A program made the translations under genes and the position numbers. The notes beneath the pieces were generated by a model, which saw only the letters and a program-made list of their open reading frames with translations, made no database searches and had not been told where the DNA came from. This document shows, one piece after another, positions 29,184 to 54,912 of a stretch of 64,000 nt of DNA. The stretch comes from Cytophagaceae bacterium (GTDB lineage: Bacteria; Bacteroidota; Bacteroidia; Cytophagales; Spirosomataceae), in NCBI GenBank assembly GCA_947460975.1, contig CANHGO010000006.1, positions 1 through 64,000 of the forward strand, given 5' to 3'. How positions within the stretch are numbered: the stretch's first letter is position 1; each line of letters starts with the position of its first letter.

Positions 29184-32114
29184 CTAATCAGCTCTCCTCG
29201 GATCTACTCGCCAGCCTAATTTCCTCAAAGCCTGCACCCGTAAACTACGGTGCTCAAACTCTTCCATAACCACACCTTTCATCCAATAAACCCCGCCTCC
29301 ACGGAAAGAATACTGTTTTAAGTCAGAAGGAAAATGTAAGGTGTCAAAAAACTCGCCCCGAACATCCACAAAATAACCAAAATACATACGCTCCCCCGCC
29401 TTCGTGCGAGTCGGCTTAAGCGTAACCAAATACCCCAATATATCGCCCCGCTCGTAACATAAATCAGCATTCAATAATGTTTCAGGGAGTTCGTCCACCA
29501 AGTCAAAGGGAGAACAGAGCGGAAATCCCAAAATCTCCCACTGATCAAATGCATCCTCGATCTCATCGTGCACCAACTCCGGCAATATCCCTAAATCAGA
29601 AGAATCATCCGCAAACATCTCCATCGAAACCACCTGAGACACCTTTCCCTGAAAACGAGCATGAGCTTCCCAGAGCAAAGGTTTCTTGCCGACACCCAAA
29701 TTCCTAAAAGCCCCCACTCGGATCAATAAAATCGCCTGTTCCAAACCTAATGAAACTCGGTGAACAAAATCATCCCAAGAACGAAATGGCCCTAATTGGC
29801 CCCTAGAGGCAATTAAATCCTGAATGACACGCTTCTCAAGGCCTTTGACATGTACCCAACCTAAGCTAATCACAGAACCCCGAATACTGGTCAAATACCC
29901 ACTCTCATTAATCTCGGGTGCCTCCACCTGCGCGCCACAGCGCCTAGCCTCATGTACATAAAATTCGGTCCGGTAAAATCCCCCAAAATTATTGATCACC
30001 GCCACCATAAATTCCAAGGGATAATAAGTCTTCAGATACAGACTTTGATAACTCTCCACCGCAAATGAAGCCGAATGTGCCTTGGAAAAACTATATCCCG
30101 AAAAACTTTCCATCTGCCTCCACACTTCGCTGGCGACGGCCAACTCATACCCTTTGTCCGCACAATTCACAAAAAAAGCCTCCCGAATCCGATCGAATTC
30201 TGCCCGAGAGCGGTACTTGCCCGACATCCCTCGCCTCAGTACATCCGCCTCCGCCAAACTTAAACCCGCAAAATAATGCGCCACCTTAATCACATCCTCT
30301 TGGTATACCATCACCCCATAGGTTTCTTTCATTAATTCACCCATCAAAGGGTGGACAGGTTCGTAAGAATCGGGCGCATGAAAACGCTCGATATAAGCCT
30401 TCATCATCCCTGAAGAAGCCACCCCCGGACGAATAATCGACGAGGCCGCCACCAGCGTCAAATAATCCTGACACCTTAATTTTTTCAGAAGTTGGCGCAT
30501 CGCAGGCGACTCAATGTAAAAACAACCCATGGTTTCGTGGCGCATCAACTGCCTCCTGACTTGTTCATCGCGCATGAAATCTTGCACGCGGTGAATGTCC
30601 ACATCTTGGCCTCGATTAGCCCGAATGATATCCACCGATTCTTTAATATGCCCTAAACCTCTTTGAGACAATATATCAAACTTTGCAAAACCAATCTCCT
30701 CCGCCACATGCATATCAAATTGGCAAATAGGAAAGCCTTTTGGCATAGGCTCCAAGGCAGTATAATGAGCCAAGGGATGCTCCGAAATCAAAATTCCGCC
30801 CGCATGAATGCTCAAATAATTAGGAAAATCAAGCAACAAACTGCCATACTTAACAATCAAACGCTGAACTTCCGAGCCCACCTCGCGCATCGCAGCCGCC
30901 GGATCAAGCCAAGCATCCACCTCCGCTTTGGGTAAACCGAAAACTTTCGCCAATTCCCGGTAAATCGATTTATCCCGAAAAGTCACATAGGTCGCCAACA
31001 AGCAAACATATTTAGTCCCATAGCGCTTAAAAATATAATCGATAATATCATCCCGCTCATCCCACGAAAAATCAATGTCAAAATCAGGCGGACTAGTCCG
31101 ATGTGGATTAATAAATCGCTCAAAATATAAATCCAAATCCACCGGATCCACATCCGTAATCCCCAAACAATAAGCCACAATTGAATTAGCCCCAGAACCC
31201 CGGCCCACATGAAAATAGCCCCGAGAACGCGCATAACGAATAATATCCCAAGTAATTAAAAAATAAGCATTAAAACCAAGCTCATTAATGACCTTTAACT
31301 CCTTCTCAACCCTCGCCTTAGCCTCTCGGTCCGAACGCGGATACCGATACCGCAATCCCTCATAAGCAAGCTTGGTCAAAAGAGCCAAATCATCCTCCGA
31401 ACTCGACCCAAATAGCACCCGATTTTTAGGCCGTTTAAAATCAAATTCAAAGGAGCAATCCGCTAAAATTCGTTCCGACTCCTCCAGCAAAAACGGATAA
31501 TCTTGGCAGTAATCCGCCAACTCATCCTGCGAGTACATACGCTCATCTTCCTGAGCTTGTGCGTCCACAGAAAGTTTACTCAATAGCGTATTTTCATCGA
31601 TTGCACGCAGCAAACGATGCATCGAAAAACCCCGTTTGTCCAAAAACGTAAAGGGCTGACACCAAACCGTCTTATCCCAATCTTTTTCCTTCCACAAACG
31701 ATTGCGATCACTCGCGCGTACCCCCCAACGCTCATACTCACCTAAATTTTTGAGTTTTTTTTTACGAACCCAAGGGAAAATAGTCCACACTTCCGCCCAC
31801 TCCGGAGGACGCTCAGGCCAAGACTCCTCAGCCAATAAGTAAGTAGAGGCAAAAGCATTAATCTGCGCCATACCATGGGCATTCCGAGCGAGACATATAT
31901 ACATCAACGTATGATTGTTTCTGAATTCCATCCCCAACACAGGTTTGATTCCTGCATCTTGGCACGCCTGAACAAAATCGAACACCCCAGAGGCTCGGTG
32001 AATATCCGTCAACGCCAGCGTTTTTATTCCATGCTTCACAGCCGCTTCCACCAATTGCTCCGGCGAAAGCGTTCCATAACGCAAGCTATAATAGGAATGG
32101 CAATTCAAATACAT
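29184..32114 (-). CDS. dnaE2: DNA polymerase III alpha subunit, accessory/error-prone DnaE2-like
   Basis: 976 aa; PHP-like N-terminus (NCHSYYSLRYGTLSPEQLVEAA), catalytic SPPDFDIDFSWDERD, GRGSGANSIVAYCLGI; operonic with dinB. Confidence 0.9.
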   Translation of the reverse strand: MYLNCHSYYSLRYGTLSPEQLVEAAVKHGIKTLALTDIHRASGVFDFVQACQDAGIKPVLGMEFRNNHTLMYICLARNAHGMAQINAFASTYLLAEESWPERPPEWAEVWTIFPWVRKKKLKNLGEYERWGVRASDRNRLWKEKDWDKTVWCQPFTFLDKRGFSMHRLLRAIDENTLLSKLSVDAQAQEDERMYSQDELADYCQDYPFLLEESERILADCSFEFDFKRPKNRVLFGSSSEDDLALLTKLAYEGLRYRYPRSDREAKARVEKELKVINELGFNAYFLITWDIIRYARSRGYFHVGRGSGANSIVAYCLGITDVDPVDLDLYFERFINPHRTSPPDFDIDFSWDERDDIIDYIFKRYGTKYVCLLATYVTFRDKSIYRELAKVFGLPKAEVDAWLDPAAAMREVGSEVQRLIVKYGSLLLDFPNYLSIHAGGILISEHPLAHYTALEPMPKGFPICQFDMHVAEEIGFAKFDILSQRGLGHIKESVDIIRANRGQDVDIHRVQDFMRDEQVRRQLMRHETMGCFYIESPAMRQLLKKLRCQDYLTLVAASSIIRPGVASSGMMKAYIERFHAPDSYEPVHPLMGELMKETYGVMVYQEDVIKVAHYFAGLSLAEADVLRRGMSGKYRSRAEFDRIREAFFVNCADKGYELAVASEVWRQMESFSGYSFSKAHSASFAVESYQSLYLKTYYPLEFMVAVINNFGGFYRTEFYVHEARRCGAQVEAPEINESGYLTSIRGSVISLGWVHVKGLEKRVIQDLIASRGQLGPFRSWDDFVHRVSLGLEQAILLIRVGAFRNLGVGKKPLLWEAHARFQGKVSQVVSMEMFADDSSDLGILPELVHDEIEDAFDQWEILGFPLCSPFDLVDELPETLLNADLCYERGDILGYLVTLKPTRTKAGERMYFGYFVDVRGEFFDTLHFPSDLKQYSFRGGGVYWMKGVVMEEFEHRSLRVQALRKLGWRVDPRRAD

Positions 32115-32116
32115 GT

Positions 32117-33307
32117 TTATTCGTCCGTTTTAGCAGGTAATCGATTTCTGCGTTCTCCGCTCCCCATGAATCCACTAGCCCTTAAAATAGAAAAATCTCC
32201 ATAGCGATTTCTTAATTTGTCCATCGCCCCATACAAAGGCACCAGCCGAGCACCCTCATCAAAAATCTGCAACTGCTCTTGCCCCTGCCATAGTTTTGAA
32301 AAGCGAACGCCTATAAGTCGGATCAATAAACGTCGATCATACAGTTTTTCAAAAAGCTCCTGAACCGCAGGAATCAGTCGGTGATCACTGGCCGAAGCAG
32401 GAATACTGATTTGTCGGGTATGGGTATCGAAATTCGAGTACCTCAACTTCACCGTCACACAAGCCGTGCATTGCCCAAGCTTACGTAAATCATACGCTAA
32501 TTGCTCCGTCAACGAACCCAAAATACGGCGCAGCAAAACCACATCCGTACTATCTTGTTCAAACGTGATTTCCTTCGACAAAGACTTCTGCTCAGAATAA
32601 GGAACCACAGGCCTCAAATCGATCCCATTAGCCCGCTCCCAAAGAACAGTCCCCGATTTCCCAAAAGTCTTTTCCAATATTTTCAAAGGCATCTGACTCA
32701 AAGTACCCACATGAACAATGCCCATATTACGCAAGGTTTGAGAAGTAACCGCACCGATCATCGGAATCTTCCCCACCGGCATAGGGGCTAAAAATGATTT
32801 TTCCTGGCCCGATACTACCTGAAATTCCCCCGCCGGTTTAACGTGATTGGTGGCCACTTTTGATACGGTCTTGTTGACCGATAACCCAAAAGACATCTGC
32901 AAACCAATCTCCTTTTTTATCCGATTTCGAAGGTCTTGAGCAAAAGCATAAGAACCAAAAAACCGTTCCATGCCGGTCATATCAAGGTAAAATTCGTCAA
33001 TAGAAGCCTTTTCAACTAAAGGAGCTCTCCCCATAATTAGCGAGGTCACCGCCTCTGAATGTTGGGTATACGCATCAAAATCCCCCCGCAAGACAATCGC
33101 ATCCGGACATAACTTCAAGGCCATCTTCATGGGCATAGCCGAACGTACCCCAAAAGCCCGCGTTTCATAACTGCATGCCGCCACCACCCCACGGTCTGAC
33201 ATTCCACCCACAATGACCGGTTTTCCCACAAGCCTAGTATCACGGAGACGCTCCACCGAAACAAAAAAACTGTCCAAATCCATGTGCACAATGGCGCGTT
33301 CTTGCAT
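32117..33307 (-). CDS. dinB: Y-family DNA polymerase (Pol IV/DinB-like)
   Basis: 396 aa; VHMDLDSFFVSVE, ACSYETRAFGVRSAMPMKMA, ASIDEFYLDMTG catalytic motifs; clamp-binding-like QLQIFD. Confidence 0.95.
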   Translation of the reverse strand: MQERAIVHMDLDSFFVSVERLRDTRLVGKPVIVGGMSDRGVVAACSYETRAFGVRSAMPMKMALKLCPDAIVLRGDFDAYTQHSEAVTSLIMGRAPLVEKASIDEFYLDMTGMERFFGSYAFAQDLRNRIKKEIGLQMSFGLSVNKTVSKVATNHVKPAGEFQVVSGQEKSFLAPMPVGKIPMIGAVTSQTLRNMGIVHVGTLSQMPLKILEKTFGKSGTVLWERANGIDLRPVVPYSEQKSLSKEITFEQDSTDVVLLRRILGSLTEQLAYDLRKLGQCTACVTVKLRYSNFDTHTRQISIPASASDHRLIPAVQELFEKLYDRRLLIRLIGVRFSKLWQGQEQLQIFDEGARLVPLYGAMDKLRNRYGDFSILRASGFMGSGERRNRLPAKTDE

Positions 33308-33325
33308 AAAATTGGTAGATATTTG

Positions 33326-33340
33326 GGTATTTTGAATACC
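33326..33340. promoter_or_regulatory. Candidate repressor operator, perfect inverted repeat GGTATT-TTG-AATACC
   Basis: 6-bp perfect arms, 3-nt spacer, in the 108-bp divergent promoter between dinB and the S24 repressor gene. Confidence 0.5.
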
Positions 33341-33415
33341 TTTCGTAACTTCGAAAAGATTATCAATAGAATTCAGCTACGAATTTTATCCATTTTAGTT
33401 TAATAAGCAAATCTT

Positions 33416-34117
33416 ATGAGTACTTTTTTTAGTCAGAATTTACGTTTTTTACGCAGCAAAATGTCGGAGAAAACTTCTCAAGAAAAACTAGCTGAATTAC
33501 TGAATATTAAGAAGCCAACCTTAGGCTCATACGAATCCGGAAGAGCCGAGCCTAAATACATCGATTTGATCCTATTGGCTCAGTTTTTCAATGTTGAGGT
33601 GGACGAATTACTCAAAGAAGATTTAGCCCAGAGAATACCCGGATTAGCGAATAAGCCTAAGCTACGAATTTTAGCCACTACGGTAGATTCAAATAATGAA
33701 GAGAATATCGAGATGGTGCCCATCAAGGCTTTGGCTGGTTATACCGCCTCCTACGATGACCTCGAATTCATCCAAGAACTGCCTACATTCCAAGTCCCTT
33801 TTCTACCCCGTGATAAAAAATACCGCGTTTTCCCGATCAAAGGGGAATCTATGTTACCCTTAAAGCCTAACTCCCTCGTGTTTGCCGAATATGTGGAAGA
33901 TTGGAAATCGATCAAGGATGATACGATTTGCATCGTAGTCACGAGAGAAGAAGGAGTGGTTTTGAAAAAAATCATCAATCACCTAGAAGCCAAGAGTATC
34001 CTGATTTTAAAATCGACCAATCCCATATACGATCCATATCCCATCTTAGGAGCTGAAATCCAAGAAATATGGAAGTTTGCGGGTTATTTTCATAGCGATT
34101 TTCCTACGAACGAATAG
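33416..34117 (+). CDS. XRE-HTH / S24 peptidase (LexA/CI-like) repressor
   Basis: 233 aa; HTH (TSQEKLAELLNIKKPTLGSYESGRAEP), ALAG candidate cleavage site, GESMLP serine and VVLKKI lysine motifs. Confidence 0.92.
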   Translation: MSTFFSQNLRFLRSKMSEKTSQEKLAELLNIKKPTLGSYESGRAEPKYIDLILLAQFFNVEVDELLKEDLAQRIPGLANKPKLRILATTVDSNNEENIEMVPIKALAGYTASYDDLEFIQELPTFQVPFLPRDKKYRVFPIKGESMLPLKPNSLVFAEYVEDWKSIKDDTICIVVTREEGVVLKKIINHLEAKSILILKSTNPIYDPYPILGAEIQEIWKFAGYFHSDFPTNE

Positions 34118-49351: not shown

Positions 49352-51049
49352 TTAATCCGCCCAAGCAACACGGTACAATTCAAATTTAATACCCGTCTTT
49401 ATTAAAAAATCATGCCAAAAATATTGGATTGCCGACAAGTGATCCGTGGGCGATTTTACTTCTATAAATTGATACTCAGAATCTTTGAAAACAAACAAAT
49501 CAGGAAATCCTTTTGCGTGAGTTGATAAATGTGTCCATAAATACCGCAATACAAATGCTAAACTTTCCTGGGGAACCCGAAGAACCAACTCCCTAATTAA
49601 TTCAATATCAAGTGTATACCAATCGATCAAAGGGTTCAATTTGCCCTCATGGTTTTCTTTGATATGTAGCGCATGAGCAAAAAATAAATCTAATGAGGCC
49701 AATAAACCCATTTTTTCTTCAAAATCTTTTTCTTTTCCCAAGGTAAACCCCTCAGAAGAATAATGACTTGGCGCCCACTGAAATGGATGATGAATGCCGG
49801 TTTGATTTTCATCAAAAACTAGATCCCAACAAAGAATCCCAAGAACATTTTTCCAAAGGTGATTTTCAGTAAAATGGGCTGAATACCCCATGTTCTCAAA
49901 ATAATCTATGACACCCAGCTCAACATTCCCCTTCCATTTGATGTCAATCAATATTGTAGTCGACAATTTTAACGATTGAGTGACCGCTTTTATATGCTTC
50001 TTTGAGTTTTGCTTTAAGATAAAATCTTCAAAAAAATGGGTCTCTTTTGGAGAAAAACCAATTTCTAGGCCCAATTTGGCCAATAGCAAAGCTTCTTCCG
50101 TCCGCTTTAATTTGGCTAAAATCCTAACCCTACGTTCCAATGACAAACCTGATAAACTCGGTTCATAAATATCCAAAGCAAGCTCCATACAGCCTAGTCG
50201 TTCAAGCCAACGGCCCAAAGAAAATAAGGCACGCTCAAAGGAACCCATTGCCAAATCCGAAATATCGACATATATGGGTAAAATATCTTGATTCCATGAT
50301 TGAACTAATTCTTGGGTTAATGCTGGATCTTTAGACATTTCATAAAAATTTTCTCGCCAAAGACTAATTTTCCACTTTTCGATAGCCTCCTTTCTCGTCT
50401 GAAAATAGGGGACAAATTCTTCCTCATTGACAGCAACGTATTGCCTATGGCCTAAATCCCGAATAACAAATTCGGACATATCACGAAATTTTGTACCAAA
50501 AAACAAGAATTGAATAAATGTGAAATTTTCTAATTGGACCGGGCAAATGAGTCGACTAGCCATTCCATTCAACACCTGCATTATTTCATAGCTAAAAGGC
50601 TTACATAAATCCACTAAATGTTCTTTGGAAATCGTAGATGCATATGTAGGAAAATGCGCTATTTTAGATGTCAAAGCGATGCACTCCTTCTTTGAAAATA
50701 CAGACAATATGGAGACTAGATTATTTGAATCTGGAGTTGAAGCAAAACGAATAAATCCTTTTTCACCCAACTCATCTAAGCTTAATGAAATATTAGAAAT
50801 TTCGACATAAGTCAGTTTTTCCTCTCTAAACCAAAGCGCACGCCTACTAGCTAATCGAAGGTAAAGGCATTGCGATTCTTTAGGTAAATTTTCAAAATCA
50901 TGAATGAATATTATTTCGGAGTCTGATAATAAATTTTTATACTGCTTTTTTACATATCCTAAAACATAATTGAAATTTTCCCAATAGTAAAAAGGTGACA
51001 AGTCAGGAATAGGCTGTTTGATCATTTTCAAATATAAATAAAAACACAA
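49352..51049 (-). CDS. VRR-NUC domain nuclease, FAN1-like
   Basis: 565 aa; C-terminal GFPDLFVFKDSEYQFIEVKSPTDHLSAIQYFWHDFL (PD-(D/E)xK VRR-NUC). Confidence 0.88.
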   Translation of the reverse strand: MCFYLYLKMIKQPIPDLSPFYYWENFNYVLGYVKKQYKNLLSDSEIIFIHDFENLPKESQCLYLRLASRRALWFREEKLTYVEISNISLSLDELGEKGFIRFASTPDSNNLVSILSVFSKKECIALTSKIAHFPTYASTISKEHLVDLCKPFSYEIMQVLNGMASRLICPVQLENFTFIQFLFFGTKFRDMSEFVIRDLGHRQYVAVNEEEFVPYFQTRKEAIEKWKISLWRENFYEMSKDPALTQELVQSWNQDILPIYVDISDLAMGSFERALFSLGRWLERLGCMELALDIYEPSLSGLSLERRVRILAKLKRTEEALLLAKLGLEIGFSPKETHFFEDFILKQNSKKHIKAVTQSLKLSTTILIDIKWKGNVELGVIDYFENMGYSAHFTENHLWKNVLGILCWDLVFDENQTGIHHPFQWAPSHYSSEGFTLGKEKDFEEKMGLLASLDLFFAHALHIKENHEGKLNPLIDWYTLDIELIRELVLRVPQESLAFVLRYLWTHLSTHAKGFPDLFVFKDSEYQFIEVKSPTDHLSAIQYFWHDFLIKTGIKFELYRVAWAD

Positions 51050-52458: not shown

Positions 52459-54912
52459 ATGATTTACACTTTACCACCCCAATCATTAAAATCATTATTG
52501 ATTAGCTTAGATAGTAGGCAGATTTATGACGCTCCTAATACGGCTTTCTTTGCAGTCAGGGGTATTCATCATGACGGACACCAATACATTGAAAACTTAT
52601 ATAAAAGCGGCATCAAAGAATTTATCGTAGAAAAGGTAGCATGGACCGGTATTTTATCTGAGAAAGCAAAAAAATGGAACGATGCGGATTTTCATGTAGT
52701 AGAAAATAGTATTCAAACTTTACAAAATTTAGCGGCCCTACATCGTAGTAAATTCGACTACGATCTTGTGGCAATTACAGGTTCAAACGGTAAAACTATT
52801 TGCAAAGAGTGGCTTGCTACTTTACTGAATGGAACTTATAATTTGGTCAAAAGTCCCAAAAGTTTTAATTCACAAATAGGAGTTCCATTATCTGTATGGG
52901 CCATGAAACCTAATCACAATTTGGGGATATTTGAAGCAGGTATTTCGCAACCTGGTGAAATGGCAAATTTAGAAACCATTTTAAAACCAAGCCATGGAAT
53001 TTTAACCCATTTTGGAGAAGCTCATGGAGCTAATTTTGGAAATGAAGATTTAAAATTGCAAGAAAAATTAAAGCTCTTCAAAACGAGTAAAACTCTGATT
53101 TATCGATCAGGAAAATGGGATAAACTAATCCATACCTACATAAAAAGTATAAATCCGGGAATTGAACTGATCGAATGGAGCACAGAGGATCCAACTAAAA
53201 ATATTTTTGTTCATTTTAATAGATCTGCCCATGAAACTCAAATTAAATTAAAGAAAGCGTCGCAAAGCGAACCTTTTATAGACATAAAAACGGAATTAAC
53301 GGATGATGCTTCCTTAGAAAACATATGCCACTGTTTAATCATGGCCCATGTGTTAGCCATGGATAATTTAGCATTAAACCAAGCTATACGAAGAGTAAAG
53401 CCAATATCCATGAGGCTAGAAATAAAAGAAGGACTCAGGGATATAAAAATAATTGATGACTCTTATAACAACGACATCGATGGGTTAAGGCTGGCTTTAC
53501 CCCTATTAATGAAATATGAGACAAAGAAAAAAATATTAATTCTAAGCGATTTTCTAGAAACTGGTTTACCCGAAGAAAACTTATACAATGAAATAAATAC
53601 CATGATATTAAATCAAAAAATTGATTTAATCATAGGTATAGGTAGCCAAATTTCAAGAAATAAAGATAAAATTACCGGAATTGAGGTTTATCAATCGACG
53701 GAAGAATTTTTGAAATCAGGAAAGTTAAATTCATTTTACAATGCAGCCATCCTATTGAAAGGGGCTAGAAAATACAATTTTGAAAAGCTAGTGTATGCAT
53801 TAGAAAATAAATCACATTGCACCCAATTAGAAATAAATTTAGATGCACTTCAACATAACTTAAGTTACTATAAAAATAAAATAGGCCTAGAAACCAAATT
53901 AATGGTCATGATAAAGGCTTTTGCCTATGGAGCGGGCGCTGTGGAAATTGGTCAAATACTCCAGCAACAAGGAGTGGATTATCTGACAGTTGCTTATACT
54001 GATGAAGGAGTTGAATTACGCAAAAACGGAATTTATACACCCATTATGGTGATGAACCCCCAAATTGAAGAATTTACAAAACTAATTGAATATTCATTAG
54101 AGCCAGAAATCTATAGTTTTGAATTACTAAAAGCATTAGATGAATATTGCCTTTTAAATGAACAAAACATTAAAATACATATCAAATTAGATACTGGTAT
54201 GAAAAGATTAGGTTTTGAAAGCCACGAAATAGAATCATTAGCTAACTGTTTAGCAGAAATGCCACAATTATGGGTAGTCAGTATGATGAGCCATCTAGTA
54301 GCCTCAGAAAGTATAGAGCATGATTTGTTTACGAAAAACCAAATCGCCGAATTTAAAAAAATGTCTACCATATTAGCTCAAAAATTAAGCTATAAGCCCC
54401 TTTTACATATAGCAAATTCAGCTGCAATAGAGAATTATCCAGAAGCAAAATTGGATATGGTCAGATTAGGAATCAGTTTATATGGCATTACACAAAACCA
54501 AAAAGAAATTAAAAAAATCGAAAACGTTCTAACGTTAAAAACTTTTATATCTCAAATAAAACAGATTGACAAAAACGAAACAGTTGGATATGGTAGAAAA
54601 GGAAAAGTAAATAAAAAAAGCACCATTGCCACATTAGCTATTGGCTATGCGGATGGCTACCCAAGATCACTCGGAATGGGAAAAGGACACTTCGAAATTA
54701 ATGGAGAATTATGCCACACCATTGGAGCCATTTGTATGGACATGACGATGGTCGACATAAGTCATTTAAAGCATGTAGCGACCGGAGATACGGCTTTAGC
54801 CTTTGGCGGAAAAATACAATTATCAGAAATAGCTAATAATGCCAACACAATCCCTTACGAAATAATGACTAACATCAGCAGTCGGGTTAAAAGAGTCTAC
54901 ATAAAAAATTAG
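52459..54912 (+). CDS. murF-alr: Bifunctional UDP-N-acetylmuramoyl-tripeptide--D-Ala-D-Ala ligase / alanine racemase
   Basis: 817 aa; ITGSNGKTICKEWLATLL; PLP domain MVMIKAFAYGAGAVEIGQIL, IKLDTGMKRLGF, AIGYADGYPRSLG. Confidence 0.95.
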   Translation: MIYTLPPQSLKSLLISLDSRQIYDAPNTAFFAVRGIHHDGHQYIENLYKSGIKEFIVEKVAWTGILSEKAKKWNDADFHVVENSIQTLQNLAALHRSKFDYDLVAITGSNGKTICKEWLATLLNGTYNLVKSPKSFNSQIGVPLSVWAMKPNHNLGIFEAGISQPGEMANLETILKPSHGILTHFGEAHGANFGNEDLKLQEKLKLFKTSKTLIYRSGKWDKLIHTYIKSINPGIELIEWSTEDPTKNIFVHFNRSAHETQIKLKKASQSEPFIDIKTELTDDASLENICHCLIMAHVLAMDNLALNQAIRRVKPISMRLEIKEGLRDIKIIDDSYNNDIDGLRLALPLLMKYETKKKILILSDFLETGLPEENLYNEINTMILNQKIDLIIGIGSQISRNKDKITGIEVYQSTEEFLKSGKLNSFYNAAILLKGARKYNFEKLVYALENKSHCTQLEINLDALQHNLSYYKNKIGLETKLMVMIKAFAYGAGAVEIGQILQQQGVDYLTVAYTDEGVELRKNGIYTPIMVMNPQIEEFTKLIEYSLEPEIYSFELLKALDEYCLLNEQNIKIHIKLDTGMKRLGFESHEIESLANCLAEMPQLWVVSMMSHLVASESIEHDLFTKNQIAEFKKMSTILAQKLSYKPLLHIANSAAIENYPEAKLDMVRLGISLYGITQNQKEIKKIENVLTLKTFISQIKQIDKNETVGYGRKGKVNKKSTIATLAIGYADGYPRSLGMGKGHFEINGELCHTIGAICMDMTMVDISHLKHVATGDTALAFGGKIQLSEIANNANTIPYEIMTNISSRVKRVYIKN

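Follow-up and report, generated by a model that had tools for sequence, protein, structure and literature searches.

In Bacteroidetes, XRE-S24 proteins have been described as "non-canonical LexA" SOS repressors on the basis of EMSA and mitomycin induction (Sanchez-Osuna et al. 2021, PMC8565304). Their regulons include dinB-dnaE operons, their operators diverge, and the repressor genes lie opposite or in front of error-prone polymerase genes. A global regulon with recA is typical but not required, and diverged clades have reduced regulons. E. anophelis possesses a diverged regulator opposite an error-prone polymerase, a mitomycin-inducible arrangement. The Cytophagaceae homologues could not be assigned to either of the two classes defined in that study.

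With respect to the polymerases, a Bacteroidetes DnaE2-PolY(-RecA) mutasome devoid of ImuA has been reported (Timinskas & Venclovas 2019, PMC6511836; a 2026 survey, PMC12926913). The former work described a RecA-NT motif on the Y-family polymerase that would allow RecA to replace ImuA. HdiR of Streptococcaceae and UmuDAb of Moraxellaceae, as far as they are cited in PMC8565304, are local S24 regulators with a minimal error-prone-polymerase regulon.

The window analysed here, a stretch of 64,000 nucleotides from a Cytophagaceae bacterium, contains the following genes:

33416 to 34117, plus strand: XRE-S24 repressor gene, 233 aa, non-canonical LexA type
32117 to 33307, minus strand: dinB, 396 aa, Pfam IMS and IMS_C
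29184 to 32114, minus strand: dnaE2, 976 aa, Pfam PHP, DNA_pol3_alpha, finger and HHH_6

The two polymerase genes are 2 bp apart and dinB is separated by 108 bp from the divergent XRE-S24 gene; the first-pass annotation had already read the 2-bp gap and the divergence, and all its coordinates were confirmed, together with the expected domains. The block is intact in every contig of the genus that reaches across it, with the start codons always 108 bp apart, so the arrangement is not a product of chance. The S24 gene is single-copy in 12/12 high-quality genomes of the genus. In the window the cassette is flanked by msrB, thioredoxin and tex genes, and phage genes are absent around the S24 gene. 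While tex follows S24 in nearly all loci of the genus, msrB, on the opposite side, shifts position, which ruled out a shared operon with msrB. We consider it quite probable that the locus is a local, damage-inducible translesion-synthesis cassette under the control of a self-cleaving S24 repressor. Elsewhere in the window there are a FAN1-like nuclease gene (49352-51049, minus strand; FAN1_HTH and VRR_NUC), which codes for a crosslink-repair type enzyme, and a gene (52459-54912, plus strand) in which a Mur ligase and an alanine racemase are fused in one 817-aa protein.

Judged by its sequence and by close relatives, the product of the cassette dnaE is an error-prone-type accessory alpha subunit and not the replicase. 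The PDFDIDF motif pointed out by the first-pass annotation is indeed present and, together with a third residue (D480), provides the catalytic aspartates D344/D346/D480, which show no variation among 81 relatives and correspond in alignment to those of E. coli alpha. The C-terminus is shorter than that of the replicative DnaE1, and tree construction placed 81 DnaE2 and 30 DnaE1 sequences in cleanly separate clades. Most genomes of the genus carry two dnaE genes, coding for a replicative protein of ~1,190 aa and an accessory one of ~976 aa. For instance, genome G010 (98% complete) has both types, its DnaE2 being 97% identical to that of the window. These relatives exclude the possibility, raised in the first-pass annotation, that the cassette gene codes for the only alpha subunit. 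Since the window's own assembly (1.50 Mb, 62.6% complete) shows a single dnaE, that of the cassette, the replicative dnaE of this genome is predicted from the relatives.

DinB is a Y-family polymerase of the "Bacteroidetes PolY2" type and the only one in the genus, with one IMS match per genome. As had been proposed, it is not a dead ImuB, since it matches IMS and IMS_C and keeps the catalytic motifs DLDSFF and SIDEF. The claim that no imuA-like gene accompanies it also stood: the ImuA model reaches the cut-off in 0/26 genomes of the genus, the sub-threshold matches being RecA itself. The DinB tail contains a clamp-type motif, QLQIF, followed by LVPLYGAMDKLRNRYGDFSILRA, a segment that resembles the RecA N-terminus and is conserved in 54 relatives with the pattern LYxAxDxIRxRYGxxxIxRA. 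Using hhalign, this tail was aligned to RecA residues 13-43 with a weak score (probability 4.6%, E 0.009), and the putative RecA-like character of the tail rests mainly on the published motif.

DinB, as bypass polymerase, and DnaE2, as extender, could be co-regulated and nevertheless act separately, with no single RecA-bound complex being formed. Both active sites are intact, unlike those of ImuB-DnaE2, so neither enzyme needs the other for catalysis, and the weak similarity of the DinB tail to RecA is also compatible with separate action. Throughout the phylum, however, dinB and dnaE2 share an operon and are conserved together, whichever of the two comes first, and the published motif analyses and models point to a complex (PMC6511836, PMC12926913). 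We regard separate action as possible, although doubtful.

The N-terminal region of the XRE-S24 protein corresponds to HTH_3 (PF01381; E 4e-11) and forms a five-helix phage-type HTH (residues 4-67; helices 4-14, 22-28, 33-41, 48-57 and 62-67 in the model). The canonical LexA winged-HTH (PF01726) is not matched, this region hitting only HTH_3-type domains. The term "LexA-independent", used in the first-pass annotation, is correct in this restricted sense, but in Bacteroidetes it is XRE-S24 proteins that have been published as the functional LexA (PMC8565304). The scissile bond is A107-G108 and the catalytic residues are S145 and K184; in an alignment of 45 S24 proteins the Ala and Gly are kept in 96 and 98%, respectively, and the Ser and Lys in 100%. 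Pfam scores the S24 domain of this protein below threshold (19.2 bits, cut-off 23.3), but PF00717 is matched by all 42 aligned homologues. A sequence search of the PDB recovered HTH domains only, the peptidase half being recovered by fold search. The AlphaFold model has moderate scores (pLDDT 75, pTM 0.51), and confidence is low in the linker that surrounds the cleavage site; among its structural matches are a lambda-186 hybrid repressor and LexA, the latter also in complex with the RecA filament. In the model, the C-domain resembles LexA/CI and not DdrO, and the HTH is phage-like, with matches to P22 C2/ImmR and a resemblance to DdrO. Some genomes of the genus also code for a 733-737-aa protein in which an ATPase-like region precedes a C-terminal S24-type domain (L234; also L235, L236 and L238).

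Across the phylum, 80 named Bacteroidota loci with DnaE2 were found. Of the loci with dinB attached to dnaE2, 35/48 have a divergent S24 gene, vs 1/23 of those in which dinB is not attached (Fisher P 2e-8, the loci not being independent). The S24 / dinB-dnaE2 neighbourhood, whose conservation the first-pass annotation had listed among its checks, recurs beyond the genus. In Flavobacteriaceae the gene order is S24 / dnaE2-dinB. Within the family, the repressor gene of a sister genus (L239:6266-8809) is divergent from umuD-umuC and not from dinB-dnaE2; its product, 54% identical, is the closest relative of the window repressor outside the genus. As read from these gene neighbourhoods, the common denominator beside S24 genes is the presence of error-prone polymerase genes.

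The XRE-S24 protein might be a remnant of a phage-type repressor, or might act on targets other than the adjacent dinB-dnaE2, the latter being constitutive or otherwise regulated. This would fit with its phage-like N-terminal domain, its sub-threshold S24 score in Pfam and the phylum loci in which dinB-dnaE2 has no adjacent S24 gene. However, there are no phage genes among its neighbours, the repressor is fixed in the genus at an invariant spacing, its homologues are repeatedly divergent from dinB-dnaE2, dnaE2-dinB or umuDC, and the S24 catalytic residues are invariant; this alternative is very improbable.

The spacer between S24 and dinB contains two elements, neither of them assigned to a strand:

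33326 to 33340: candidate operator, GGTATT-N3-AATACC (core GGTA-N7-TACC), ~18-33 bp upstream of the dinB ATG
33378 to 33396: S24-side element, TACGAATTTTATtCATTTT, the most conserved element of the spacer (1.95 bits mean, 16 genus spacers)

Five of the six arm positions of the candidate operator are kept as dyad pairs in 15-16 of the 16 distinct genus spacers, including the GGTA/TACC pairs; the remaining one, an inner pair, is kept in 12/16 and lost in 4. Another part of the spacer is more conserved than the palindrome, and a palindrome with 6-bp arms and an N3 spacer arises in about 8% of the copies when this AT-rich sequence is shuffled. The S24-side element is an inverted near-copy of 33306-33318, at the dinB start, and the resulting inverted repeat may be either a promoter pair or an auxiliary (second) operator. 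With regard to the published operators, CTAA-N5-TTAG and TTAC-N5-GTAA are absent from the window spacer, and GGA-N5-TCC has one match in 260 bp upstream, a background frequency (about 9% per 330 bp).

When 26 genomes of the genus were scanned for the pattern, the candidate operator was located essentially once per genome, at the cassette. There are 10 extra exact matches vs 7 control matches over the 26 genomes; they were discarded as further regulon members, being near the control level and, in the six inspected, located inside coding ORFs. All eight one-mismatch matches in the window's own genome also fall inside coding ORFs, and the candidate operator was not found near the FAN1-like nuclease gene. 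Upstream of recA, in 25 genomes of the genus, neither GGTATT-N3-AATACC nor CTAA-N5-TTAG was found, and GGA-N5-TCC is not conserved, with one isolated match only. Since the palindrome is essentially confined to the cassette and absent upstream of recA, the predicted regulon appears to be limited to the cassette; the lack of a recognisable recA site indicates that S24 is not a global SOS regulator here. A real repressor triggered not by RecA-driven self-cleavage but by a separate protease or another signal, like Deinococcus DdrO/IrrE, is a very improbable explanation: although the HTH resembles that of DdrO and recA lies outside the predicted local regulon, the Ala-Gly, Ser and Lys residues show full or almost full conservation in the 45 homologues, the C-domain is modelled as of the LexA/CI and not the DdrO type, and binding and regulation by related proteins are those of SOS repressors (PMC8565304).

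Operators were also surveyed upstream of 70 S24 genes from the phylum, whose loci are not phylogenetically independent. CTAA-N5-TTAG was found in 16 loci vs 0.36 expected, GATTA-N5-TAATC in 10 vs 0.02, CTAC-N5-GTAG in 6 vs 0.04, and GGTA-N7-TACC in 7 vs 0.1. The operator half-sites track the recognition helix of the repressor, in four classes:

helix IKR..GAYEE: operator CTAA-N5-TTAG
helix (M/L)KR(S/P)TLSGYEN: operator TGATTA-N5-TAATCA, Bacteroidales-type genomes
helix WSRS..GSYEEGRS: operator CTAC-N5-GTAG
helix IKKPTLGSYESGRA: operator GGTA-N7-TACC, the window's genus

Three of the four class operators are not named in PMC8565304 and may be new. GATTA-N5-TAATC also occurs upstream of several dinB-dnaE2 or dnaE2 operons with no adjacent repressor in the sequence covered, which suggests regulation in trans, although some of these loci end near the operon. 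A divergent S24 gene with TGATTA-N5-TAATCA sites at dinB-dnaE2 is present in Bacteroidales/Prolixibacteraceae-type genomes (L144, L145, L150, L156, L158, L166, L172, L175, L190, L191 and others); both regulator groups of PMC8565304 were reported absent from Bacteroidales. On balance, we are slightly inclined to think that the non-canonical LexA family is split into helix-readable operator classes and that the regulator of the window's genus is a one-operon, mutagenesis-only switch uncoupled from recA.

From homology and the literature, a mechanism of repression, RecA-triggered cleavage, induction, complex formation and mutagenesis can be proposed for the cassette, and we consider it very likely. 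In the undamaged cell, an XRE-S24 dimer would sit on the palindrome between the divergent genes, keeping dinB-dnaE2 repressed and probably also its own gene. The first-pass annotation took the S24 protein for the damage sensor. By homology, the sensor would instead be RecA polymerised on single-stranded DNA, probably the damage signal itself, and the S24 protein would be the transducer that reads the filament and is cleaved. Upon contact with the RecA filament, self-cleavage of the S24 domain at A107-G108, catalysed by S145/K184, would remove the repressor. DinB and DnaE2, then produced jointly, would act at the sliding clamp as a mutasome bound to RecA, the RecA-like tail of DinB taking the role filled elsewhere by ImuA/ImuB.

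The first-pass reading of the locus as a mutasome is supported, as regards an S24-controlled cassette without ImuA, by conservation, residues and literature, but neither mechanism nor set-up is new, both being already described for Bacteroidota (PMC6511836 and PMC12926913 for the mutasome). What the present analysis would add is the candidate operator of the genus, its main new element, together with the predicted local regulon and the putative helix-operator classes. If this is true, the Spirosomaceae/Cytophagaceae homologues left unclassified in PMC8565304 would constitute a distinct operator class of Bacteroidetes SOS repressor, and the cassette would be a naturally occurring SOS system that retains mutagenesis only, a useful one in which to study the reasons for the rapid change of LexA-type operators.

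Among the known systems, the DnaE2(B)-PolY-RecA mutasome, in its Cellulophaga algicola / Belliella DinB type (PMC6511836, PMC12926913), was found to differ from the window in local details only: an active PolY adjoins DnaE2, ImuA and ImuB are lacking, the DnaE2 core is the reduced one of Bacteroidetes, and the DinB tail is putatively RecA-NT-like, with a weak hhalign match. The ImuA-ImuB-DnaE2 systems of Proteobacteria and Actinobacteria share with the window a proposed damage-regulated operon ending in an accessory dnaE2, but the window lacks ImuA, its Y-family member is catalytically intact and the operon is not under canonical LexA. The S24 repressor with a minimal error-prone-polymerase regulon, predicted in our case, recalls HdiR and UmuDAb, although these, as cited, belong to unrelated lineages with other operators and polymerases. 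Like non-canonical LexA (PMC8565304), the window protein combines a CI-like HTH with an S24 domain carrying Ala-Gly, Ser and Lys, and its gene is divergent from error-prone polymerase genes; the autoregulated promoter palindrome of that family has a candidate counterpart at 33326-33340. In contrast, GGTATT-N3-AATACC differs from the described operators CTAA-N5-TTAG, GGA-N5-TCC and TTAC-N5-GTAA, and the regulon, with no site upstream of recA in the genus, is apparently cassette-limited. Since PMC8565304, PMC6511836 and PMC12926913 already describe this type of repressor and the mutasome, the cassette can be regarded as a genuine member of a known system.
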